Shown here one piece after another: positions 552 through 42,889 of a stretch of 42,889 bases of DNA. Position 1 is the stretch's first letter, and the number at the start of each line of letters is the position of its first letter. The DNA lies in the IMG/VR virus record IMGVR_UViG_3300046829_000089, positions 1-42,889 of that record; one strand, written 5' to 3'. The notes under the pieces are model-generated. The model did no database searches. It saw only the letters and a program-made list of their open reading frames with translations, and had not been told where the DNA came from. This DNA comes from a virus. The translations under genes and the position numbers were made by a program.

Positions 552-656
552 ATGAAGACTCACTACCGTTATAACTACCATTTCAAAAAATGGTTGTGGT
601 CTGGCGGATACAACATTCCTTTCCCGCTAATGTCTTTACCAACATCCCTTGCCTGA
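552..656 (+). CDS. Possible 34-residue leader peptide coupled to large terminase
   Basis: ATG at 552 follows an AGGA box at 538-541. The ORF (MKTHYRYNYHFKKWLW...) ends at TGA 654-656, overlapping by 8 bases the TTG at 649 that appears to start the large terminase. The same overlap style joins many genes in this genome, so translating this ORF could supply ribosomes to the weak TTG start. There is no recognisable domain. It may be only a chance ORF. Confidence 0.3.
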   Translation: MKTHYRYNYHFKKWLWSGGYNIPFPLMSLPTSLA

Positions 657-2157
657 CATCACCCTCCCCAACGCCTGGACCGGTCGCTTCTATCAGAAGA
701 AGTTGTGGGATTATTTGATGGCCGGCGGCAAGCGCGCTGCGCCTGTCTGGCACAGACGCGGTGGCAAAGACAAGGTCTGTCTCAACTACACTGCGCCGGC
801 TGCGCATATCCGCCAGGGTGTGTACTGGCACATGCTTCCGGAGGCCAGCCAGGCCCGCAAGGCGATCTGGGATGCGGTGGACGAATTCACCGGTCAGCGC
901 CTGATCGACCAGGCCTTCCCGAAGGAATTGCGCGCGACGACGCGCGAGTCCGACATGTTCATCCGTTTTCACAACGGATCCACATGGCAGGTGGTCGGCA
1001 GCGACAACTACGACAGTCTGATCGGCAGCCCGCCCATTGGCGTCGTATTCAGCGAATTCGCCTACGCAAACCCGATGGCGTGGCAGAAACTGTCGCCCAT
1101 CCTGCTGAACAATAACGGCTGGGCAATTTTCCCGAGCACCCCATACGGGCGCAATCACTATCACGGCCTACACGAAAACGCCAAACTCGATAGCGAGTGG
1201 TTCACGGAAATCCTGACGGTCGAGGACACGGGCGTACTGACGCAGGCGTTTCTAGATCGGCGTGCGCAGCAGGGCAAGGCGTACGTTTACGAAGGCCAGC
1301 TCATCACCAGCATTCACCAATTGCCGTGGTCGCACGTGATCGAGCTCACTAGAATCGAGGTCGCCAGGGAGGAGCGGCAACTTGCCGCGCAACGTGGTCC
1401 TGAGGAAGCGGCGGCGATCATCCAGCAGGAGTATTACTGCAGTTTCAATGCAGCCACGCCAGGCAGTATCTACGGATCGATCCTTGAGGAAATGGAACGC
1501 GCGACGCCGCCACGGATATGCAAAGTTCCGTTCAATCCTGGATTTGCAGTGGACATGGCCTGCGATCTGGGCGCGAGCGAAGGTAATGACATGGCGATCT
1601 GGTGGACGCAACGCATCGGCCGGGAGACGGTTTTCATCGACTGCGACAATGCGGCCAATGTCGGTATTGACTGGTTGGTCGACAAGGCAAATCAACGCCG
1701 GGTGGATCGCAAGTTCAACTATGCGGAAATTCCCTTTGCGCTCCCCCATGACGCCGGCCACCCGCAACCCTCAAACGCTGGTGCCATGTCGTTCGCCCAG
1801 AAGCTGCAGAAGGACTACGGTTATCGCAGCCGAGTTAACGTTGTGACCCCGAGTGTGGCGTGGAGCCTGACCCGCTGCAAGCAGTATCTGGCGCAATGCG
1901 TGTTCGACGCGCAGCACTGCGAAGTGGGTCTGGGAGCGCTGCGCAGCTACCACCGCAAGTACGACCCCAAGCGCCAGAACTATTCCGAATACGCGGTGCA
2001 CGATTGGAGTTCCAACCTGGCTGACGCGTTTCGCACGCACGTCGAGGGTCAGAAGGTTGCTAGACAGTTGCAGCCGGTCAGCGTAGATTACTTTGCGCAA
2101 AAGAAGCGTGGTGAATTCGCTTTGCACGATGAAGACCCACTTGGCAGAGGTTTTTAA
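649..2157 (+). CDS. terL: Terminase large subunit (packaging ATPase-nuclease)
   Basis: This is the DNA-packaging motor, 502 residues. The N-terminal ATPase has a Walker A-like VWHRRGGKD around residues 33-41 (Lys40) and a Walker B-like GVVFSEFA with Ser-Glu at 135-136, a form seen in podophage terminases. The RNase H-like nuclease has acidic residues in CDLGASEGND (Asp306), LPHDAG (Asp368) and VHDWSSNLADAF (Asp452). An in-frame stop at 628-630 leaves TTG 649 as the only start that keeps the conserved N-terminus (ITLPNAW...). No good Shine-Dalgarno precedes it, so coupling to the upstream short ORF is plausible. Confidence 0.95.
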   Translation: MPDITLPNAWTGRFYQKKLWDYLMAGGKRAAPVWHRRGGKDKVCLNYTAPAAHIRQGVYWHMLPEASQARKAIWDAVDEFTGQRLIDQAFPKELRATTRESDMFIRFHNGSTWQVVGSDNYDSLIGSPPIGVVFSEFAYANPMAWQKLSPILLNNNGWAIFPSTPYGRNHYHGLHENAKLDSEWFTEILTVEDTGVLTQAFLDRRAQQGKAYVYEGQLITSIHQLPWSHVIELTRIEVAREERQLAAQRGPEEAAAIIQQEYYCSFNAATPGSIYGSILEEMERATPPRICKVPFNPGFAVDMACDLGASEGNDMAIWWTQRIGRETVFIDCDNAANVGIDWLVDKANQRRVDRKFNYAEIPFALPHDAGHPQPSNAGAMSFAQKLQKDYGYRSRVNVVTPSVAWSLTRCKQYLAQCVFDAQHCEVGLGALRSYHRKYDPKRQNYSEYAVHDWSSNLADAFRTHVEGQKVARQLQPVSVDYFAQKKRGEFALHDEDPLGRGF

Positions 2158-18249: not shown

Positions 18250-20756
18250 TGCGTAGCGACTGCATCGATGCCGTTACCCGCGCCGCCGGTCGCGCCCTGA
18301 CTGCGGGGGAGCTGCGCGACATCGAGGGACGCCTGCTCAGCGCGGTGCGCCTGAACGCGCGCGAAGACCGCGCCACGATAGCCAGCCAATCCCCCGGCGA
18401 ACGCCTGCAGACGGCCGCAGAGCGCGTGGCCAAGGATCTGCAGGCCGAGGCCGAGCGCAACGCGCGCAACGTGGCGGCGCAGATCATTGCGCATGATCGT
18501 AACCAGCAGTTCATCGACACCTACGGACCCAAGGTCGGCGGCGCCATGAATGCGGTACGGCGCCTGCTCGCGGACAACCTCGACGGCAAGGGCAATGTGC
18601 GCAGTCTCGAACAGCGCCGCAATGGCATTGCGCGCTACTACAACGGCAAGATCGCGCCGGTGGTTGCCGCGACGCAGCAGTACCTTGGATTCTGGACGAA
18701 CAAGCAGGCCGTGCGCGATGTGCTGCGGGAACTGTATGGCGAGGACAGCAAGAACCCGGCAGCCAAGGCGGCAGCGAAAGCATGGTCTGACAATGTCGCC
18801 GAGCCATTGCGGCAGCAGTTCAATGCGGCCGGTGGCGCAATCCGACAACTGAAAAACTGGGCGGTACCGCAGAGCCATAGTCAGGTCAAGGCGGCGCGCG
18901 CAGGACTAGAAAAATGGACCGCTGACGTGTTGCCGCGGCTGGATCGCGAGGCCTACGTCAATGCTGACGGCAGTCTCATGAACGATGCGCAGGTCACGGA
19001 AGTGCTGCGGCAATCGTACGACTCGATTTCTACCGATGGCGCCAACCAGATCCAGCCCGGCCAGCATCAAGGCGCCGGTGCGATAAAGAATCGCGGCCAG
19101 GATGAGCGCGTCCTGCACTTCGCCAATGCCGATGCCTACATGGACTACCAGGCCAAGTACGGCGAGCGCAGCCTCTTGGAAACCATGACCGGCCACATCC
19201 AGGGCATGGCCAAGCAGATCGCGACCTTGGAGACATTCGGACCCAACGGCGAGGCAGGATTCCGGCAACTGCTAGATACCGCTTATCAGGCAGACGCTAC
19301 CGCTCGTCGGGAAAGTTTGGGCAAGCTCAAGGGACAACTGGCGACAACCGAAACCCAGTTCATGCTGTCGTCTGGCAAGATGGGTGCGATGGGCAACCCG
19401 AACCTGGCCCACAAGTTCGACATCGCAAAGACGCTCATGGTCTTGCCCAAGCTCGGCAGCGCGACGCTGAGCGCGATCACTGACGGCAGCAACATGCGCG
19501 CGGTGGCGCGTGCGTGGAATATCCCGGCGTTCAAGATGTGGCAGGCGAGCCTGAAAGCCTGGACGAGCGCCGACTTCCGCCAGACTATGCGCGCCAACGG
19601 TGTCGGTGTCGAAGCGGTCACGCACGCGATCAGCCGCTATGGCGAGGAAACCTTCGGCCACGGCATGCCGAGCGCAGTCGCCAATACCTTGTTCCGGGTA
19701 TCAGGCCTCAACTTCCTCGACAACGTCCGCCGCACCGGTGCCGGTGCCATGCTGATGGACAAGCTCGGTGGCCTTGTCTCAGCGCATGAGACGATGGAAT
19801 CGATGTCTGCACATGATCGGCAATTGCTCGAAAGTCGCGGGGTGATAAGTTCCACATGGAACATCTGGCGGCAGGCGGAATTGAGCGATGGCATGTTGAC
19901 GCCGGATGCGATCGGCCGTATCGATGGCCTGAGCAACGGCGCGCGCCGGGATGCGTTGCAGCATCTGGTCGGCACCGTCTTCATGGACGAGGGCACGGTC
20001 GTGCCGATGATGAAGGACTGGGCGCGGGGTTCGGTGCAGTCGGTACTGGGCGCGGCAAAGCGCGGTACGTGGGGCGGCGAGCTGGTCAACTCGATCCTGC
20101 AGTTCAAGTCGTTTCCCGTGGCGATGATGGCAAACCACTGGCAGCGGCTGCAGTCGATGCCGTCGCCGGCGGGCAAGATCCTGTACGCTGCGGAACTGAT
20201 CGCGTCGAGCACGATCCTGGGCGCGTTGTCGGTGCAGATGAAATCGCTCGCCAGCGGCAGCAACCCGCAGGACATGACGGACAAGAAGTTTGCCGCGCGT
20301 GCATGGATCCAGGGCGGTAGCACGGGGTTGCTGGGCGACATCATTGGCAACGCCTTGGTGTCGCCTTACAAGGAACACCTGACGGACATGCTGGGGCCGG
20401 TGGTATCCAGCGCCAGCGAGTTGTACGACCTCGGGCGCAGCGCCAAGGAGGCGGCGACCGATCCTAGCAAGCGCAATCAGTTCGGCGATGCCGCGGTGCG
20501 CTTTGCCAAGAACATGACGCCGTTTCAGAACCTGTGGTACACGAAGCAGGTCACGGACCATCTGATCTTTCAGCGTCTGCAGGACTACTACTCGCCGGGC
20601 TACAGCCAGCGCAGTCAGCAACGCGCACAAACCAATTTCGGTTCGACGCCATGGTGGAAGCCATCGACTGCCGCCGCGCCGAGCCAATTGCTGACCGGAA
20701 AAGGCGTAACATCCCCGACAGTGCCCAACCTGAATACCGCTACCGGAAACCGCTGA
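18246..20756 (+). CDS. Large internal virion / ejection protein
   Basis: 836 residues from ATG 18246, overlapping the previous stop; the adjacent ATG at 18249 is better spaced from GGGAGG and may be the true start. The protein is helical and Ala/Arg-rich. Segments such as LLETMTGHIQGMAKQIATLE, QFKSFPVAMMANHWQRL and FAKNMTPFQNLWYTK are of a type I associate with very large phage ejection and polyvalent proteins. By position it replaces T7 gp16. A hydrophobic stretch (AELIASSTILGALSVQM) could insert in the host membrane during DNA entry. No enzymatic motif recognised. Confidence 0.8.
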   Translation: MMRSDCIDAVTRAAGRALTAGELRDIEGRLLSAVRLNAREDRATIASQSPGERLQTAAERVAKDLQAEAERNARNVAAQIIAHDRNQQFIDTYGPKVGGAMNAVRRLLADNLDGKGNVRSLEQRRNGIARYYNGKIAPVVAATQQYLGFWTNKQAVRDVLRELYGEDSKNPAAKAAAKAWSDNVAEPLRQQFNAAGGAIRQLKNWAVPQSHSQVKAARAGLEKWTADVLPRLDREAYVNADGSLMNDAQVTEVLRQSYDSISTDGANQIQPGQHQGAGAIKNRGQDERVLHFANADAYMDYQAKYGERSLLETMTGHIQGMAKQIATLETFGPNGEAGFRQLLDTAYQADATARRESLGKLKGQLATTETQFMLSSGKMGAMGNPNLAHKFDIAKTLMVLPKLGSATLSAITDGSNMRAVARAWNIPAFKMWQASLKAWTSADFRQTMRANGVGVEAVTHAISRYGEETFGHGMPSAVANTLFRVSGLNFLDNVRRTGAGAMLMDKLGGLVSAHETMESMSAHDRQLLESRGVISSTWNIWRQAELSDGMLTPDAIGRIDGLSNGARRDALQHLVGTVFMDEGTVVPMMKDWARGSVQSVLGAAKRGTWGGELVNSILQFKSFPVAMMANHWQRLQSMPSPAGKILYAAELIASSTILGALSVQMKSLASGSNPQDMTDKKFAARAWIQGGSTGLLGDIIGNALVSPYKEHLTDMLGPVVSSASELYDLGRSAKEAATDPSKRNQFGDAAVRFAKNMTPFQNLWYTKQVTDHLIFQRLQDYYSPGYSQRSQQRAQTNFGSTPWWKPSTAAAPSQLLTGKGVTSPTVPNLNTATGNR

Positions 20757-32651: not shown

Positions 32652-32855
32652 ATGGCATTCGTCGCCAAGGGAACGCAAAAGGTCGACAAAGGCATCCGCC
32701 AGCGCATCCTGCAATTGCTGAAAGGCAGGCCACGCACTATCCCTGAGCTTGTCAACCTGATCGGGGTCACGCCCAATACGGTGTATGTGTACTTGTGGAA
32801 ACTGCGCAGCGATGGACTGATCGAAGACAAACCCAGAACGTTTAGCCTGAAATGA
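32652..32855 (+). CDS. Small winged-helix DNA-binding protein, candidate regulator
   Basis: 67 residues with AAGGA upstream. IRQRILQLLKGRPRTIPELV, then NLIGVTPNTVYVYLWKLRSDGLIE reads as a winged helix-turn-helix (recognition helix around PNTVYVYLWKLR). Being the first gene behind two overlapping promoters, it is the obvious candidate to regulate that switch, including its own expression. It has no dimerisation or ligand domain, so it would act as a minimal regulator. Coupled to the next gene by ATGA. Confidence 0.75.
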   Translation: MAFVAKGTQKVDKGIRQRILQLLKGRPRTIPELVNLIGVTPNTVYVYLWKLRSDGLIEDKPRTFSLK

Positions 32856-33085
32856 CCGACCTCAACCACACCCGCTACCGCACCCTCAAGTCGACGGGCG
32901 GGCGCGTCTTCTTCACTGTCTGCTGCAAATGCGAAAAGACCCCTGCGCCGTACGGATACAATCACATCCGCACCACCGGCAGCGGCAAGTGGGTCAAGGG
33001 TGTCTGGTTGGGAAAACCCCCAACAGATACGCTGCCGACAGCGAGCTACTACTGCAAGGAGTGTAAGCCATGCGAAACCACCTGA
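32852..33085 (+). CDS. Cys-rich putative zinc-binding protein
   Basis: 77 residues. VCCKCEKTPAPYGY near the middle and YYCKECKPC at the end give two Cys pairs far apart in sequence, a treble-clef or zinc-ribbon pattern. The remainder is basic. Function unknown; nucleic-acid binding is likely from composition and company. Confidence 0.68.
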   Translation: MTDLNHTRYRTLKSTGGRVFFTVCCKCEKTPAPYGYNHIRTTGSGKWVKGVWLGKPPTDTLPTASYYCKECKPCETT

Positions 33086-33162
33086 TTTTCCTGTGCTGGT
33101 GCGTCATCATCGTCGGCGTCGGCTGCAGCATCGCGGCGATTGCAAGTTGGTACTTCCAGTGA
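33070..33162 (+). CDS. 30-residue single-pass membrane peptide
   Basis: ATG 33070 behind AAGGAG, inside the end of the previous gene; stop shared as TGATG with the resolvase start. Nearly the whole peptide is one membrane helix (LIFLCWCVIIVGVGCSIAAI). Too short for common gene finders. Good ribosome-binding site and overlaps on both sides argue that it is real. Role unknown; it sits upstream of the resolvase and endolysin. Confidence 0.55.
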   Translation: MRNHLIFLCWCVIIVGVGCSIAAIASWYFQ

Positions 33163-33704
33163 TGCGAATAACGATCGGCATCGACCCCGGACAATCCGGC
33201 GCCATCGCAATACTTGCAGACGGCGAGCCCATCCAGGTGTTCGACATGCCGGTGAGTGCGCGCAAGACAAGCGGGCAGGAAGTGTCGGCGACCGCGCTCG
33301 TGATCGAGCTGCGCGCGATCCTGCGCAGATCCGAAGGCGCGCACGTATTTGCGGCCATCGAACAGGTGGGCGCGATGCCTGGTAACGGGGGCACATCCAT
33401 GTTCCGGTTCGGCGAGGGCTTCGGCATCGTCAAAGGCGTGCTGAGCGCGCTCGGGATTGGCTACACCCTCATCACGCCGCCACGGTGGAAGAAGTGGGCC
33501 GGCCTCATCGGGGCCGACAAGGACGCCAGCCGCACGCTGGCGATGCAACGATTCCCCGGAGCCGTGCCATGGCTGACGCGCAAAAAAGACGATGGTCGGG
33601 CCGATGCAATATTGCTGGCGCGATTCGCTTGGGAGTCGGAGCAGCACGCGGTTCCGGCATCACCCTTGACCAGCTCCGCCAACTTTCAGGAAGCATCGAT
33701 ATGA
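33162..33704 (+). CDS. RuvC-like Holliday-junction resolvase
   Basis: 180 residues. RNase H-fold motifs: IGIDPGQSGAIAI with Asp8, AAIEQVGAMPGNG with Glu67, and KKDDGRADAILLAR with Asp144 and Asp148, the usual acidic quartet of phage RuvC-type nucleases. It cuts branched DNA arising during replication and recombination, which is needed before packaging. Start set by TGATG overlap with the tiny membrane gene. It may also debranch concatemers for the terminase. Confidence 0.88.
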   Translation: MRITIGIDPGQSGAIAILADGEPIQVFDMPVSARKTSGQEVSATALVIELRAILRRSEGAHVFAAIEQVGAMPGNGGTSMFRFGEGFGIVKGVLSALGIGYTLITPPRWKKWAGLIGADKDASRTLAMQRFPGAVPWLTRKKDDGRADAILLARFAWESEQHAVPASPLTSSANFQEASI

Positions 33705-36669: not shown

Positions 36670-37239
36670 ATGAGTGTCGAACCGACCAAACCCGCCGCTG
36701 CGGCAGCCGCCAAACCCGCTGCGCCCGCACTCTCGGCCAACGCGCAGCTCTGGACGAAGTGGGTAGCGACCCAGGACGCGACCAACAACCTCGTCGACTT
36801 CAAGACGGGCCAGCTCATGCTGAACCCGCCGCCAGCACCCCCGGCGCCTGTGCCCGTCGACAAGTCCCCGTACCTGCCGATCGGTGACGACCTGTGGCCG
36901 AACTGGGCCCATTGCTATCGCGAGTTCGTCACGACCCTATCCGGCGACGACCGCGGCAAGGCGCAGGCAAACCTGGATCGCGCCAACACGCTCTACCAGG
37001 ACACCGGCGGCATCCAGAGCGGCATGATCGGCGCCTGCTACCAGGCCGACAAGGTCAGCGGCAAGTGGATACTGGACATGGCCAGGCCGATCCTGGGCAC
37101 GGTCAGTTGGCCGGATGCGCTGCTATGGGACGGCAACACCAATGGCGGCACCAAGCGCGGCATCATGATCTGGTGCGAGAAAACCCGCGAGCCGGGCCCC
37201 AATCCTGACGCCGTACCGTTTCCGTTCCCCGGCAAATGA
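36670..37239 (+). CDS. Hypothetical protein with Ala/Pro-rich linkers
   Basis: 189 residues behind AGGAG. An Ala/Pro/Lys-rich N-terminus and a proline run (PPPAPPAPVP) flank a short domain; the C-terminal 110 residues are compact, with several Trp (LWPNWAHCYREF, GKWILDMARPILG). Might be a virion-associated or secreted protein, but has no signal peptide. Coupled to the next gene by ATGA. Confidence 0.7.
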   Translation: MSVEPTKPAAAAAAKPAAPALSANAQLWTKWVATQDATNNLVDFKTGQLMLNPPPAPPAPVPVDKSPYLPIGDDLWPNWAHCYREFVTTLSGDDRGKAQANLDRANTLYQDTGGIQSGMIGACYQADKVSGKWILDMARPILGTVSWPDALLWDGNTNGGTKRGIMIWCEKTREPGPNPDAVPFPFPGK

Positions 37240-37736
37240 GCATCGGCGACCTGTCATTCCACTTTTCCCCGTCGGGCCTGCCGGATCTGAAAGACCTGGA
37301 CGACGCCACCACGCTGCGGCTGGGGGAGTGGAAGATCGAACGCGGGTTTACCATCCCCTACTGCGCGGGCTGGGATGAACGCGAGCGCATCGTCTACGTC
37401 GACCAGGCCGTCCCGGAGACGTGGGAAGTCCAGGGGCGCGTCCTGCAGATCGTCGAGGGCGCGTTGTTCTGGCACGAATCGCTGGAATCGGACATCTGCC
37501 GCGAGTATCCGCCTGAGCACTACGCTGGGGGCCATACGGTTGCCACGTATTTCGAGAACGCGTACGTGACCGCGCATGGCTTTGACGCCAATCGCTACGA
37601 AAACGAGTTCTGGGCACCGCTCATCAAGGCCATAGGCTCGCGCAAATCCTATCCCCGCGTGCCCAAGGGGATGAGCCTGTTGCCCTATACCGACAGCAAA
37701 GACCAGACCACCATCGCCAAGATGAAATTCGTATGA
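37236..37736 (+). CDS. Hypothetical protein with HExxE motif (metallopeptidase-like?)
   Basis: 166 residues. EGALFWHESLESDI contains H-E-x-x-E, and about 25 residues on GGHTVATYFENAYVTAHGFD supplies another His and Glu. This layout (HExxE, then H...E) resembles small phage proteins that may be zinc peptidase relatives; it is not the standard HExxH. Ends in ATGA with the Ig-like gene. Function uncertain. Confidence 0.65.
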   Translation: MSIGDLSFHFSPSGLPDLKDLDDATTLRLGEWKIERGFTIPYCAGWDERERIVYVDQAVPETWEVQGRVLQIVEGALFWHESLESDICREYPPEHYAGGHTVATYFENAYVTAHGFDANRYENEFWAPLIKAIGSRKSYPRVPKGMSLLPYTDSKDQTTIAKMKFV

Positions 37737-38155
37737 GCATCCACACCGACTTACGCAAGATCATCCGCTTACTGCGGCGCCTGCTAGACTCTGTCACGGG
37801 CGCGGCAAGCGTCCAGATCACCTTCCTTACTCCGGAGAACGACATGTCCAATACCGTTACACTCAACGCCAACGCGGTCAACGCACAGACCTCGCAGGCC
37901 ACTGCCACCAACAACCTGGGAACGGCCAGCTACCTGTGGGCCAGCGACAACACTGCGGTTGCCACCGTCGACATCACGGGCCTGGTCACAGGCGTCGCCG
38001 ATCCTTCCGGCAGCGGCACCAACACCTGCAACATCACCGCCACCATCGGCCCCGGCAACCCCGGCGCTGGCACGGTAGGCACGGGCGTCGTCACCGTCGT
38101 CACGACCGCAACGGAAGTCACCGTCACCATCGACTTCGGTCCGCCGACCCCGTGA
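37733..38155 (+). CDS. Ig-like (Big2-type) domain protein
   Basis: 140 residues from ATG 37733 (ATGA). An internal ATG at 37844 has the better ribosome-binding site (GGAG) and would give 103 residues made of just the domain. YLWASDNTAVATVDITGLV then TGVADPSG and CNITATIG are typical of bacterial Ig-like group 2 folds. Such domains on phage particles can bind glycans or mucin weakly. Whether it is virion-bound here is unknown; it lies far from the structural genes. Confidence 0.72.
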   Translation: MSIHTDLRKIIRLLRRLLDSVTGAASVQITFLTPENDMSNTVTLNANAVNAQTSQATATNNLGTASYLWASDNTAVATVDITGLVTGVADPSGSGTNTCNITATIGPGNPGAGTVGTGVVTVVTTATEVTVTIDFGPPTP

Positions 38156-38356: not shown

Positions 38357-40033
38357 TTGTCAAACACAACACAACTGCCGGGGATGCAATCGCTAGTGCG
38401 ATTCCCCGATGCCCGTGTCATCGTCGTCCAGGGCGCAAACAACTTCGCTGCGGCAACGCGGCTGTTCCCGGCCAATCCCGTGATCGACTGGGATGGTAAG
38501 GAAGCGCTGCCCGTACTCAATCGCGATGCCGTGCTGTGGCCGGCCAATCCCCTGCCGCAACGGCTGGACGCGTACGTCGCGGCGCTCCCGGAATCGGTCA
38601 GCGATGCCAAAAGCCTGACTGTGTTCGCGCCCGGCAATCCTGCAGAATGCTGGACGCCGGCAGAAGTCGAGGCCCGGCATCTGCCCAAGCAATGGATCGT
38701 CCAGCACCTGAAACCCCTGCCAGTGCCAGCGCGCGTGGCGCCGCTGCCCGCGGACGCTCCGGAGCTGGCGCAGGCAAGGGCGGCAGAGACGAAGGTCAAG
38801 AAACCCCGCGCGCTCAAGACACGGCCACCACGTTGGGCAGAGCTGGGGCTCATCCTGTCCGATCACGGCATCCCCGTGCCCACGCTCGACAACGCGGTGC
38901 GCGTGATCGAGCACGACCCCAACATCGCCGGGCATATCTGGTTCGACGTGTTCCTGCAACGCATCCTGCATGACTGGGATCAGGAAATCGTACGCGAGTG
39001 GACGGACGCCGACGACCTGCGGCTGCAACTGTACCTGCAGCGCGATGTGGGCATAGGCAAGATCACCAAGGGCACCGTCAGCGACGCCGCGGCAACCTAC
39101 GCCAAGCGCGAACACCGCAACTGCGCGTACGACTGGCTGGATGGCCTGCAATGGGATGGGTTTCCGTACCTGGAAAACCTGGCCGCGCGCGGGTTTGGCG
39201 CTGACAACACCGAGTACAACGCGGCCGTATGCAGGAACCTCATTTTGTCCATGGTCAAACGCGTGTTCTCACCGGGATGCAAATGCGACTACATGCCTGT
39301 GTTCGAGGGCGCGCAGGGCATCGGCAAATCCATGGCGTTGGGCATCCTCGGGGGCGACTGGTTTGCAGAGCTGCACATCAGTTGGGAAAACAAGGATTTT
39401 TTCGATGCGCTGCAGGGCAAGATGCTGCTCGAAATCGGGGAAATGCACGCATTCAGGCAATCGGATGTGGATAGGATCAAGGGGATCGTTTCATGCGCGT
39501 CAGATCGCTATCGGGCATCGTACGGGCGCCACACGGAAGACTACCCGCGCCAATGCGTGTTCGTAGGCACCACAAACCGCAAGGACTGGAACCGCGACGA
39601 TACGGGCGCCCGGCGATTCTGGCCGATCGTATGCGGGGCAATCGATCATGCGTGGCTGCGCGAACATCGCGACCAGTTGTTTGCCGAAGCCGTATCGCAG
39701 ATCCGCGCGGGCGCCAGATACTGGGATGTGCCGTGGGAGGAAGCCGGGCGCCAGCAGGAAGCGCGACGCGCGCCGGACAGTTGGGAGGATGTGCTGACCG
39801 AGTATGTGATCGGAAAGTCCAGGTTGCTCATGTCTGACGTACTGCGCGATGGCCTCGGGATCGACATTGGCAAGCAGACGCTGGGCGATCAGCAGCGCGC
39901 GGGACGCGTGCTCAAGACCATGGGCTGGCACAACCCGCTGGGGGAACGCGACGAGTCCGGCAAGCGCAAGCGGACCTGGCAACGAATAAGCGCCGGGGAT
40001 GAGCCGGCGCCCGGGGAGTTGTTCGACGACTAA
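38357..40033 (+). CDS. VirE-type primase-helicase (D5-like)
   Basis: 558 residues starting at TTG 38357, with GGGAG six bases upstream. FEGAQGIGKSMALGIL (P-loop, Lys324-Ser325), MLLEIGEMHAF (Walker B) and VGTTNRKDWNRDDTGARRFW with arginine finger are the signature of virulence-associated E / D5-like superfamily 3 helicases. The N-terminal 120 residues (VIDWDGKEALPVLN, RDAVLWPANPLPQR) look like a decayed Toprim primase domain. It should unwind DNA and perhaps prime synthesis for host polymerase. Ends convergently with a minus-strand gene, sharing bases. Confidence 0.9.
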   Translation: MSNTTQLPGMQSLVRFPDARVIVVQGANNFAAATRLFPANPVIDWDGKEALPVLNRDAVLWPANPLPQRLDAYVAALPESVSDAKSLTVFAPGNPAECWTPAEVEARHLPKQWIVQHLKPLPVPARVAPLPADAPELAQARAAETKVKKPRALKTRPPRWAELGLILSDHGIPVPTLDNAVRVIEHDPNIAGHIWFDVFLQRILHDWDQEIVREWTDADDLRLQLYLQRDVGIGKITKGTVSDAAATYAKREHRNCAYDWLDGLQWDGFPYLENLAARGFGADNTEYNAAVCRNLILSMVKRVFSPGCKCDYMPVFEGAQGIGKSMALGILGGDWFAELHISWENKDFFDALQGKMLLEIGEMHAFRQSDVDRIKGIVSCASDRYRASYGRHTEDYPRQCVFVGTTNRKDWNRDDTGARRFWPIVCGAIDHAWLREHRDQLFAEAVSQIRAGARYWDVPWEEAGRQQEARRAPDSWEDVLTEYVIGKSRLLMSDVLRDGLGIDIGKQTLGDQQRAGRVLKTMGWHNPLGERDESGKRKRTWQRISAGDEPAPGELFDD

Positions 40034-40287
40034 GGTCCAGGTTGCTCGGGTTCCCAGCAGGCTGGCACATGAACAGTGTACGGCTCCAATGCTTGGCAGG
40101 CACGGCGGGTTTCCTTGATGCCGGCGGTAATCAGCCGATGCACGCAACCAGATACGCTTTCATTGGGTAAACGGAAACGGTCCAGGTTGTTAAACTGCTC
40201 GGCCGTCATGCGCACGTAGACAATCTTTCCCCCTTTCTCCCTGAATCGCGCAAGGCTGGCAGCGTTGTACTCGGCGCGGGTTTTCAT
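40030..40287 (-). CDS. Putative ribbon-helix-helix DNA-binding protein
   Basis: 85 residues from ATG 40287 (ATGA overlap). KIVYVRMTAEQFNNLDRF, then SVSGCVHRLITAGIKE reads as strand-helix-helix, the pattern of ribbon-helix-helix repressors and antitoxins. No toxin partner is visible. As last gene of a leftward unit next to a multi-site operator region it is a candidate repressor. It overlaps the primase 3' end by four bases. Confidence 0.62.
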   Translation of the reverse strand: MKTRAEYNAASLARFREKGGKIVYVRMTAEQFNNLDRFRLPNESVSGCVHRLITAGIKETRRACQALEPYTVHVPACWEPEQPGP

Positions 40288-40643
40288 GGCTGCACCCGGC
40301 AATTGACGACGACTTGTGCAGGCGTTGCCCATGCCGGGCAATCCCATGCGTACGTGCGCTCGCAACCGAAAGGCGAACACACCCCGTTCGGCAGATACCA
40401 TGCTTGCAGGTACCACGCGCTTGCGCCCGTCTGATCGATCGGCGCCAGGTCAAATGGCTCCATTGAATCGACAAAGACCGTATCGGTATCAGATTGCGTC
40501 CACTGCACCGCGTACAGGCCATTCTGCGGACCGTAGACGGTGCCGGAGTACGTGAGGCTGTCGCTGACAGGCAACAGCACCGTAAATCGCTCAGGGAGCG
40601 CCTGGGCACTGGCAACGGCAGCCAGGATGAGGGCGGGGATCAT
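40284..40643 (-). CDS. Secreted Cys-containing early protein
   Basis: 119 residues from ATG 40643. IPALILAAVASAQA is a short signal peptide with a likely cut after AQA. The mature part has four Cys near the end (CSPFGCERTYAWDCPAW, VNC) that can form disulphides in the periplasm. GGAG nine bases upstream. Expected to act in the envelope; superinfection exclusion is one possibility. Confidence 0.7.
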   Translation of the reverse strand: MIPALILAAVASAQALPERFTVLLPVSDSLTYSGTVYGPQNGLYAVQWTQSDTDTVFVDSMEPFDLAPIDQTGASAWYLQAWYLPNGVCSPFGCERTYAWDCPAWATPAQVVVNCRVQP

Positions 40644-40831
40644 GGGGATTGACTCCGTAGCTGATTGTCGAATTGTTCGCGCATGCGCCGGGCATCCTGC
40701 GCCCACATGCGCAAGCGTGTTTCCAGGGATGCCGTTGGGATATGGTTAGCGTCTCGGCGCATGCTTGGATCAAGCCATTGGCCATCGCAGGACGCGCTAC
40801 CGTCGCGGCTGGGGTATGGGTTGTGCGTCAT
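40640..40831 (-). CDS. Small hypothetical protein
   Basis: 63 residues, coupled at both ends. Begins MTHNPYPSRDGSASCDG; C-terminal helix SLETRLRMWAQDARRMREQF. No known domain. Confidence 0.62.
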   Translation of the reverse strand: MTHNPYPSRDGSASCDGQWLDPSMRRDANHIPTASLETRLRMWAQDARRMREQFDNQLRSQSP

Positions 40832-40832
40832 G

Positions 40833-41264
40833 TCAGCGCGTCCAGTAGTCGATGCCGAAAAAATCTACGGACGTGTAATCCATCTGCAATTCTCTAGCGG
40901 CGCGCTCCCAGTCAATACAATTGTTTGGCCATCTCGCGTCGCTATTGATTGCGCCTATGTCATCGGCAAGCTCTTGAGCGTAAGTCTCAAAATACGAGTC
41001 ACGGATCAGTGTGACCGAATACCAATCGCCGCGCCATTGTTCGTCGCCGCCGTTGCCTTTGCATTCCTCAAGCAACGTATTGAGCATTGCAAGTTCTGCG
41101 GCTTCTTCCGGGAACACTTCCGCCCATCCTTCGGAGTTTTCTGTCTCCGTTCCGTCTGGAGCTGTCAGTGTGCAACGTTCCCGTTCTTCTTCCAATTCCT
41201 CAACGCGCGCGATCACGTCGCGCAGGTCGATTATGTCTTGCATGTTGTCAATTTCGCGTTCCAT
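40833..41264 (-). CDS. Acidic ArdA-like antirestriction candidate
   Basis: 143 residues from ATG 41264 with GGGAGTC upstream. Strongly acidic (RVEELEEERER, VFPEEAAELAM). The C-terminal half, RDSYFETYAQELADDIGAI then CIDWERAARELQMDYTSVDF, is a pattern found in many phage and plasmid genes and resembles part of ArdA, the DNA-mimic that inhibits type I restriction. ArdA function is inferred from acidity and pattern. The gene is complete. Confidence 0.65.
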   Translation of the reverse strand: MEREIDNMQDIIDLRDVIARVEELEEERERCTLTAPDGTETENSEGWAEVFPEEAAELAMLNTLLEECKGNGGDEQWRGDWYSVTLIRDSYFETYAQELADDIGAINSDARWPNNCIDWERAARELQMDYTSVDFFGIDYWTR

Positions 41265-41339
41265 AACGTGACTCCCAGTTAATCGCAGGATTGCGACCGA
41301 TACTGCGCACTCACAAGGGAATGCGCAGGGGCGGGGCAA

Positions 41340-41498
41340 TCAGGCGCGAACCGATCGGTTGAACCGCGCCAGCCATTCGTATGCGGTCAACACTTCATAG
41401 CGCGCGGTATTCACCTTGTCGGCGACGCTACGCTGCCACGTCTCGAAAACAGGTAGGCCAGTGGCGCGATTCACGATAATCCAGCTGTTGCACATCAT
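41340..41498 (-). CDS. Small conserved-type phage protein
   Basis: 52 residues; ATG ATG at 41498/41495 overlaps the previous stop (ATGATG with TGA). Sequence pattern SWIIVNRATGLPVFETW, then VNTARYEVLTAYEWLARFN recurs in my memory in short phage early genes of unknown role. Too short for many gene finders. Confidence 0.68.
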   Translation of the reverse strand: MMCNSWIIVNRATGLPVFETWQRSVADKVNTARYEVLTAYEWLARFNRSVRA

Positions 41499-41875
41499 GG
41501 CGCCACCTTGGCCAGTGCGGCGCCGTTGTCATCGGCGTGCAGATCGCAAATTCTCCCGTGTGCATCATCGCCACGCGAACGATGTTGTTTTGCGGACTCG
41601 TGCAGGACATGGATCACGCTGCGCAATTCCGCCACAAGCTCGTCATGGGCGTTGCAGGCGCGGACGATGAAGGCACAGTCTGCGTTGCGCGTCTCTACGC
41701 CGCCGTATCCGTGGTAGTCGTCGCCGAGAATTTCAAGCGCATAAGGCATATTCTCTACGCGCGGCCCTTGCACCATAGAGCCATACGCATACCCGCGCGG
41801 GTCTATACGATGAGTCCACGGCCCCGGCGTGCGCTGCGTTGCGGCGAGTGTGTTTTGTGTCAATTTTGTACCCAT
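41495..41875 (-). CDS. First gene of the leftward accessory unit
   Basis: 126 residues behind GGGAG. Contains TPGPWTHRIDPRGYAYGSM, then ALEILGDDYHGYGG and ADCAFIVRACNAHDELVAEL, a module common in phage early proteins (PGPW ... A-x-FI-x-x-AxNxHDELV). The function is unknown. Expressed from the TTGACT/TACACT promoter about 45-70 bases upstream. Confidence 0.75.
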   Translation of the reverse strand: MGTKLTQNTLAATQRTPGPWTHRIDPRGYAYGSMVQGPRVENMPYALEILGDDYHGYGGVETRNADCAFIVRACNAHDELVAELRSVIHVLHESAKQHRSRGDDAHGRICDLHADDNGAALAKVAP

Positions 41876-41978: not shown

Positions 41979-42156
41979 GGAACATCGAAGGAACAGTGTT
42001 CGGAACATTGTGGAAACGGCAGTAGATCAAGGGAACAGAGGGAACAGAGTATTGAAGGGGATAGATATATATATATACTACTTATCCCCAACGCGTAGAT
42101 TTTACAGCTACATGGGGTTTTGCCTGTTCCAAGCGTTCCGTCCGTTCCAGTGTTCC
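41979..42156. repeat. GGAACA / (T/C)GTTCC box array around an AT-rich core (candidate origin or operator)
   Basis: GGAACA occurs at 41979, 41990, 42002, 42032 and 42041, with a GGAAAC variant at 42012; the last two extend to GGAACAGAG. On the other side of the core the opposite orientation appears as TGTTCC or CGTTCC at 42125, 42134, 42143 and 42151. Spacing is mostly 9-12 bases, near one helical turn. TGTTC-G-GAACA (41997-42007) is itself palindromic. The array brackets an inverted repeat and a promoter. It is non-coding: the small terminase gene starts downstream. Confidence 0.9.
42052..42089 (+). promoter_or_regulatory. AT-rich core with GGGGATA/TATCCCC inverted repeat and sigma70-like promoter
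   Basis: GGGGATA (42057-42063) pairs with TATCCCC (42083-42089) across 19 bases dominated by an alternating AT run (42065-42077), which should unwind easily. TTGAAG (42052-42057), 16 bases, TATACT (42074-42079) also reads as a rightward promoter for the terminase and late genes. Either DNA unwinding, promoter, or both are possible uses. Confidence 0.7.
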
Positions 42157-42276
42157 AAGGCAATTGTGACAAATGTGAAGACAATTGTTAAATTGGAAGG
42201 CAGGAGCAAGGGCTCGGACCAGCTACTCGCTGGACGACGCTTGCCAAGCGCATCGCGAACGGCTAAATTCGCAAAC

Positions 42277-42738
42277 ATGTTCGATCAAGCAAAAGCGGAC
42301 CAGGTGTGCGAGCGCGTTTACGATGGCTTGCCCATTATCACCGCGTGTCGCGAGGTCGGCGTGCCACGGCAAACGCTGTACGACTGGGAGGCGAAAAACC
42401 AACCCTTCGCCGTACAGCTCGCGCGCGCTCGATCGGCAAATTGTGATGCACTCGTTGACCAATGCCTTGAGATTGCCGACGACGAGACGCACGATTGGGC
42501 GCTGAGCAAAAAAGGCGTCATCTGTGACGAGGTCGCCATTGGTCGCGCGAGACTGCGAGTTGACACTCGTCTCAAGCTGGTCGCCAAGCTGGATCCCAAG
42601 CGCTATGGCGACCGCATCCAGTCCGACGTTGACCTGAACGTCAAGGTGACGCTCGTCAACCCGTTCCAGATCGCACAGGACGCCGCAAGCGCTGCGCTCG
42701 CGCCTGTGGCCATGCTCGACAAGCCAGACAATGGCTGA
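42277..42738 (+). CDS. terS: Terminase small subunit
   Basis: 153 residues if started at ATG 42277. The N-terminal helix-turn-helix (QVCERVYDGLPIITACREVG then VPRQTLYDWEAKN) recognises phage DNA; the middle helix (FAVQLARARSANCDALVDQC) forms the oligomer ring; RLRVDTRLKLVAKLDPKRYG and DVDLNVKVTLVNPF are typical of terminase small subunits. Ribosome-binding site is weak; a TTG at 42241 would give a longer N-terminus. It overlaps the next gene by 8 bases. The box array just upstream could be its packaging target. Confidence 0.88.
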   Translation: MFDQAKADQVCERVYDGLPIITACREVGVPRQTLYDWEAKNQPFAVQLARARSANCDALVDQCLEIADDETHDWALSKKGVICDEVAIGRARLRVDTRLKLVAKLDPKRYGDRIQSDVDLNVKVTLVNPFQIAQDAASAALAPVAMLDKPDNG

Positions 42739-42889
42739 ACCGCGCCTGGCGCTCATGGGCGCTGCTGGCAAGGGCCGCGACATCTATCGCGCTGTACGCG
42801 AGCAAATCAATCGCATGCGTCTGCAAGGCATTGAGCCCAAAGTCGTCTGGGTTGGCCAGGACACAGTGGACGCCATCCATGCGCTGTGG
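42731..42889 (+). CDS. Small protein next to terminase genes, 5' part (continues at base 128)
   Basis: ATG 42731 in the overlap ATGGCTGA opens the frame MAEPRLALMGAAGKGRDIYR and runs off the right end. The continuation is the frame ending at 304 on the left end. See the left-end entry for the joined protein. Confidence 0.8.
   Translation, partial: MAEPRLALMGAAGKGRDIYRAVREQINRMRLQGIEPKVVWVGQDTVDAIHALW
42763..42889. repeat. Terminal redundancy, right copy
   Basis: Identical to 1-127. Removing one copy closes the circle and restores one continuous gene across the junction. Confidence 0.93.

Follow-up and report, generated by a model that had tools for sequence, protein, structure and literature searches.

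What is the role of a dense, two-sided array of GGAACA boxes in front of the small terminase gene (terS) of a phage? The array lies in virus record IMGVR_UViG_3300046829_000089, which was analyzed over its whole length of 42889 bases (hereafter, the window). An earlier note on this DNA had described the array and offered three functions for it, namely an iteron origin with an unwinding element, a looping multi-site operator, or a pac site recognized by the small terminase (TerS). The first of these is favored by comparative evidence, in which such arrays recur together with a helicase of family PF05272. We consider it highly probable, on sequence comparison, that the array is the replication origin of the phage and is read by its own VapE-like helicase.

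The array consists of five GGAAC copies on the forward strand, every one followed by A, and four inverted GTTCC copies, of which two are preceded by T and two by C (Table 1). Every forward copy lies 5' of every reverse copy, and all are exact matches within the stretch named previously. The nine GGAAC copies occupy 178 bp; when the intergenic region was shuffled 5000 times by dinucleotides, no shuffle reached that number (mean 0.79, maximum 5). When any 5-mer was allowed to win, nine copies were likewise found in none of 1000 local shuffles (maximum 7). The earlier note had proposed to look for an equal density of GGAAC elsewhere, and the richest other 213-bp stretch of the window held 4 copies. 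The GGAAC array is real and goes beyond chance. Its spacing of about one helical turn holds loosely, with inner boxes about 9 bp apart, outer boxes 11–12 bp apart, and one gap of 30 bp. The array starts at 41979 as described, but strictly defined it stops at 42156 and not at 42191.

The two half-arrays enclose an AT-rich core, and its existence was confirmed by a minimum GC fraction of 0.12 over 24 bp, which falls in the lowest 0.01% of the 24-bp stretches sampled in the window. The inverted pair GGGGATA (42057–42063) and TATCCCC (42083–42089), formerly seen as framing the AT run, is present in the core, but its significance did not survive: a comparable 7-bp pair occurred in 15.5% of shuffles and none was seen in relatives. 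The pair was rejected as a core palindrome and is probably incidental.

A promoter scan found five promoter-like matches over the array region against 0.7 expected, including a sigma-70-like match (TTGAAG-16-TATACT) inside the core at 42052–42079. In a divergent intergenic region, this enrichment would suit a multi-site operator, at which a repressor or activator bound to both half-arrays would loop over or cover promoters between the leftward gene and the terminase operon. As the explanation of the array, this is quite improbable, as the array recurs beside convergent or unrelated neighbors and is tied to the helicase gene, a poor fit to a promoter-specific role. An operator role may nevertheless exist beside that of an origin.

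In four relatives that encode this helicase, the array is significant; each array exceeds 1000 local shuffles for any 5-mer and is built from another word: GGATACC in G001, CTACCTTG in G049, GTTACC in G025, and ATGACACT in G013. G001 shares 75% identity with the window in the large terminase (TerL), about 51–54% in the helicase, and 42–43% in TerS. Its intergenic region has no DNA similarity to that of the window, yet five ATACC boxes followed by four GGTAT boxes lie 5' of terS. G049 is more distant in TerL (49%) and TerS (32%), with 60% identity in the portal protein and 52% in the helicase. Its left boxes are spaced by 10, 13, 32, and 9 bp, compared with 11, 12, 30, and 9 bp in the window, and inverted copies and then terS follow. 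A long GCGGCG/GTAGGC tandem repeat was also observed at the end of the G049 contig (L191:8620-8780). In G025, the boxes lie between the helicase stop and terS. Conservation in relatives, suggested earlier as a check, was thus found for the layout and not for the box sequence; among these genomes the word appears to change while the layout largely stays. The array is read as an origin, with the helicase as its reader, because the same layout recurs with other words in phages that share this helicase.

Arrays lie directly 3' of the helicase gene in phages that encode a VapE helicase and whose packaging genes appear unrelated; examples are Kosakonia phage Kc259, Pseudomonas phage Haddon, Marinobacter phage PS3, and Staphylococcus phage phi2 (Table 1). 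Acidovorax phage Aval showed no clear array. Viral contigs searched for the helicase with a single sequence gave no match, and alignments were required. Of 76 GTDB loci, 45 had their strongest 6-mer cluster starting between -60 and +700 bp from the helicase stop, as did 52 of 79 viral loci (97/155 in total); about 5% would be expected under uniform position. Both sets include many close Pseudomonas relatives, such that the counts are not independent, and non-redundant subsets of 28 and 15 loci agreed with the full sets.

A scan for inverted arrays in TerL loci picked out the window, G001, G013, and Stenotrophomonas phage BUCT555. PF05272 was absent in 46 of the 51 TerL-related records, above the curated cut-off in three, and a weak match in two; no such array was found in the scanned loci without PF05272, except possibly in BUCT555, which has a weak PF05272 match. 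The BUCT555 locus contains GGGGTC/GACCCC clusters near one end (L008:340-546). Clusters of 6-mers occur in some VapE-negative TerL loci, and many of them are GC-rich. Comparison across the wider phages and prophages showed the array, at the level of sequence, to be linked to the helicase gene and not to terS.

These results bear on the pac site, at which TerS would bind the array upstream of its own gene and headful packaging would start. In the window, about 120 bp separate the last box from terS, which lies downstream as the earlier note had placed it, and arrays also precede terS in G001, G049, and G025. Moreover, the DNA-binding part of TerS diverges among relatives and could match divergent boxes. 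However, like arrays lie 3' of the helicase gene and at a distance from terS both in prophages of many bacteria and in phages whose packaging modules appear unrelated. The window TerS had no match in eight close helicase relatives, including the closest ones with arrays beside the helicase, although several of the eight are fragments and TerS diverges fast. Kc259 combines the same box core with a different packaging module, and inverted arrays were not found, apart from the possible case of BUCT555, in the scanned TerL loci without PF05272. Conservation alongside TerS, and not alongside other genes, would be expected of a pac site, and the linkage follows the helicase. The origin is preferred because arrays follow the helicase gene in phages whose packaging modules seem unrelated, and a pac site is very unlikely.

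The helicase has the features of a predicted initiator. Its start codon is uncertain, as the frame is open from 38345 and an ATG is at 38384. An AlphaFold model (predicted local distance difference test, pLDDT, 84) gave as its best PDB match PriRep1 with double-stranded DNA (7pds, an entry with six chains; E = 5.3e-28), and the primase-helicase of the Staphylococcus aureus pathogenicity island (SaPI) SaPI5 was a lower-ranked match. A PDB sequence search with the helicase also returned 7pds ('similar to D. nodosus vapE'). The C-terminal domain was modeled as a small helix-helix-helix-strand fold, with weak fold matches mostly to winged-helix proteins (best E = 0.018); alone, the winged-helix model had no PDB structure match at E ≤ 0.001 and no PDB sequence match. 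This predicted winged helix is likely the box binder. The binders proposed earlier were TerS, the winged-helix product at 32652, and the protein at 40030, and comparative evidence points to the helicase instead.

In the N-terminal part of the helicase (38384-38800), VQGANN...WPANPLPQ (VQGKDN...WLNNPLPQ in G001) was aligned with the TOPRIM-like primase region of a further relative, G003 (VEGEKA...WPDADKPG). Judged from this alignment, the likely catalytic acidic residues look to be missing, and the primase part looks inactive in the clade of the window and G001.

An origin could also be bound by another phage or host initiator. The window array does not adjoin the helicase gene, and the phage encodes further DNA-binding proteins, among them a helix-turn-helix protein at 32652. 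In unrelated genomes, however, it is the helicase gene to which such arrays are repeatedly linked. No cluster of canonical DnaA boxes was noticed, although no formal DnaA-box test was made. An initiator other than the VapE-like helicase is very improbable. Iteron plasmid origins have direct-repeat iterons and a RepA-type initiator gene; in the window the repeats stand in two opposed sets, and no RepA-type gene turned up among the proteins scanned, which were part of the open reading frames (ORFs).

For the origin read by the helicase, the following course may be proposed. The helicase would be an initiator of the VapE/SaPI-Rep type that loads itself, and its C-terminal winged helices would read the GGAAC boxes. 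One helicase assembly per half-array would place two assemblies face to face across the AT-rich core. The core would then melt, two helicase hexamers would be loaded in opposite directions, and replication would start at the array.

Several findings weigh against this interpretation. The array lies 1.95 kb from the helicase gene (first box at 41979, helicase stop at 40033) and adjoins terS. After correction for the AAA+ domain, box similarity covaried with winged-helix identity (partial Mantel test, partial r 0.18, p = 0.001), but the AAA+ domain covaried with the boxes almost equally (partial r 0.15, p = 0.008). The covariation specific to the winged helix is significant and does not pin down the reader, and it was set aside as proof of the reading domain. 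In G003, the fifth relative, the CTTCC/GGAAG array is weaker and of low complexity, and its two-letter word fell outside the shuffle test. No array was found in several closely related helicase loci (L194 and L197), within the sequence available. Lastly, the skew check suggested in the earlier note gave a cumulative GC-skew minimum at 38966 and a maximum at 20454. These values agree weakly with an origin close to the array, but the skew is shallow, and 3 kb separate its minimum from the array.

The arrangement of the boxes was compared across helicase loci. In 25 of the 28 non-redundant loci, a core of 65–140 bp separates innermost boxes of opposed orientation, and such opposition holds in 13 of the 15 loci of an independent validation set (38/43 over both). 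The boxes that follow, at about 9 and 18 bp, are oriented alike in ratios of 48:1 and 35:2 in the first set and of 20:0 and 14:1 in the validation set. At least two outer patterns were observed: an inverted box near 51 bp with a pair near 73 and 83 bp (for example, PS3, L189, and L123), and a same-orientation group with an 11–12-bp pitch about 30 bp past the inner boxes (the window, G049, L119, L200, and L201). Fixed outer slots, defined after inspection of the first set, were not significant in the validation set and were rejected as a general rule: 62 of 108 validation boxes fell in the slots, compared with a null mean of 53 and a maximum of 65.

Well-preserved halves often contain six boxes, and those of the window contain five and four. 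Six boxes per half suggests one hexamer per half. It is possible, though doubtful, that VapE-type helicases across phages and prophages share an origin grammar of mirror half-sites, the best preserved with six boxes each (at 0, 9, and 18 bp, with an outer group about 30 bp further), one winged helix per box, and two head-to-head hexamers, in which the word would turn over freely and the ruler would stay, as between the window and G049. Of this grammar, the independent set upheld the opposed orientation and the inner boxes at 9 and 18 bp alone, and the window departs from it in box number. The fast change of word with a kept layout makes helicase–origin specificity and competition between phage and satellite origins directly testable, and the arrays offer practical landmarks for finding the origin in phages that encode VapE helicases.

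The ends of the record (1-127 and 42763-42889) overlap exactly over 127 bases, which would be expected if the phage genome, of 42762 bp, was assembled as a circle or is permuted. The window also encodes a head-tail connector (PF12236) and a tail-fibre-like protein. A DNA similarity search against named phages gave weak matches only, in neighboring genes. A RuvC-like Holliday junction resolvase (33000-33704, +; phrog_1770, E = 5.8e-36) is 80% identical in G001. Just 5' of the helicase gene, an Ig-like Big_2 domain protein (37733-38155, +) and a weak cellulase-like match (37236-37736, +) were observed.

Table 1. Positions of the features in the window, and arrays of four further phages
Feature	Position	Strand	Details
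Left half-array, outer group, GGAACA x3	41979..42007 (boxes 41979, 41990, 42002)	+	Exact matches; pitch 11-12 bp
Left half-array, inner group, GGAACA x2	42032..42046 (boxes 42032, 42041)	+	Pitch 9 bp
Core with AT run TATATATATATA (about 42065-42077)	42047..42124	.	Candidate melting site; sequence and GC minimum
Right half-array, (T/C)GTTCC x4	42125..42156 (boxes 42126, 42135, 42144, 42152)	-	Pitch 9, 9, 8 bp; opposed to left half
VapE-like (PF05272) helicase	38357..40033	+	PF05272 E=1e-67; PHROG helicase E=3.4e-90
Helicase C-terminal domain, predicted winged helix	about 39773..40030	+	pLDDT mostly 85-95 in full model, 82 alone
Three opposite-strand genes between helicase and array	40033..41875 (40030-40416; 40833-41339; 41495-41875)	-	ORF list
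ArdA-like antirestriction protein	40833-41339	-	PF07275 E=4.3e-5 (under curated cut-off); phrog_25535 E=8e-55
Small terminase TerS (Sf6 type)	42277..42738	+	phrog_1482 E=1.8e-26; PF20901 E=6.9e-28
Terminase-large-like protein (TerL)	649-2157		Homologues in other phages annotated terminase
Kosakonia phage Kc259 array	directly downstream of helicase gene		Word GGAACAT; box core as in window
Pseudomonas phage Haddon array	directly downstream of helicase gene		Word GGGACAG
Marinobacter phage PS3 array	directly downstream of helicase gene		Word TGGTCACC
Staphylococcus phage phi2 array	directly downstream of helicase gene		Word GATGCAACA

The locus may be compared with known replication systems. Phage P4 alpha is an origin-recognizing primase-helicase, and its repeat-based ori and crr sites can lie apart. 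P4 alpha and its cognate ori have been mentioned previously (PMC6092414). The likeness is a lead by description. In lambda, the iteron origin lies inside the O-like gene, with short repeated boxes beside an AT-rich region. In contrast, the window array is intergenic and mirror-symmetric and is linked to a helicase, not to an O-type protein. One PF05272-negative TerL relative has nine GGGACA copies, probably inside a coding gene (L020:461-597), which recalls the internal iterons of the lambda O type.

The putative origin of the staphylococcal cassette chromosome mec (SCCmec) helicase Cch2 has AAGTG iterons downstream of the gene for this self-loading helicase, whose C-terminal domain binds its own iterons (PMC7581432). 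It comprises three iterons as direct repeats only, whereas the window has nine boxes in two opposed half-arrays.

Origins of Escherichia coli phage-inducible chromosomal islands (PICIs) always have two iteron sets around an AT-rich region; rep-ori drove plasmid replication, and the two-set design was described as peculiar to phage satellites (PMC6092414). The window shows this layout, which SaPIs share. SaPIs and PICIs use self-loading helicases of the Rep/VapE/D5 kind as initiators, and the window helicase resembles these in its PF05272 match and in PriRep1 as its best fold match. The C-terminal domain of SaPI/PICI initiators reads the iterons (PMC6092414; PMC7581432), and the corresponding domain in the window is the predicted winged helix. 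The SaPI/PICI origin lies immediately 3' of the initiator gene, as do the arrays of G025, Kc259, Haddon, PS3, and phi2, whereas three opposite-strand ORFs intervene in the window; origin and initiator gene can apparently be separated. SaPIs and PICIs are satellites without structural genes, whereas the window is a phage that carries terminase, portal, and tail genes of its own, and its array has the word GGAACA and lies just upstream of terS. The window locus would therefore work like a PICI origin without itself being one, because the adjacency is lacking and the phage is not a satellite. Earlier phage descriptions may exist beyond the open-access literature, and the comparison appears to extend the satellite-type origin design to whole phages and many prophages.
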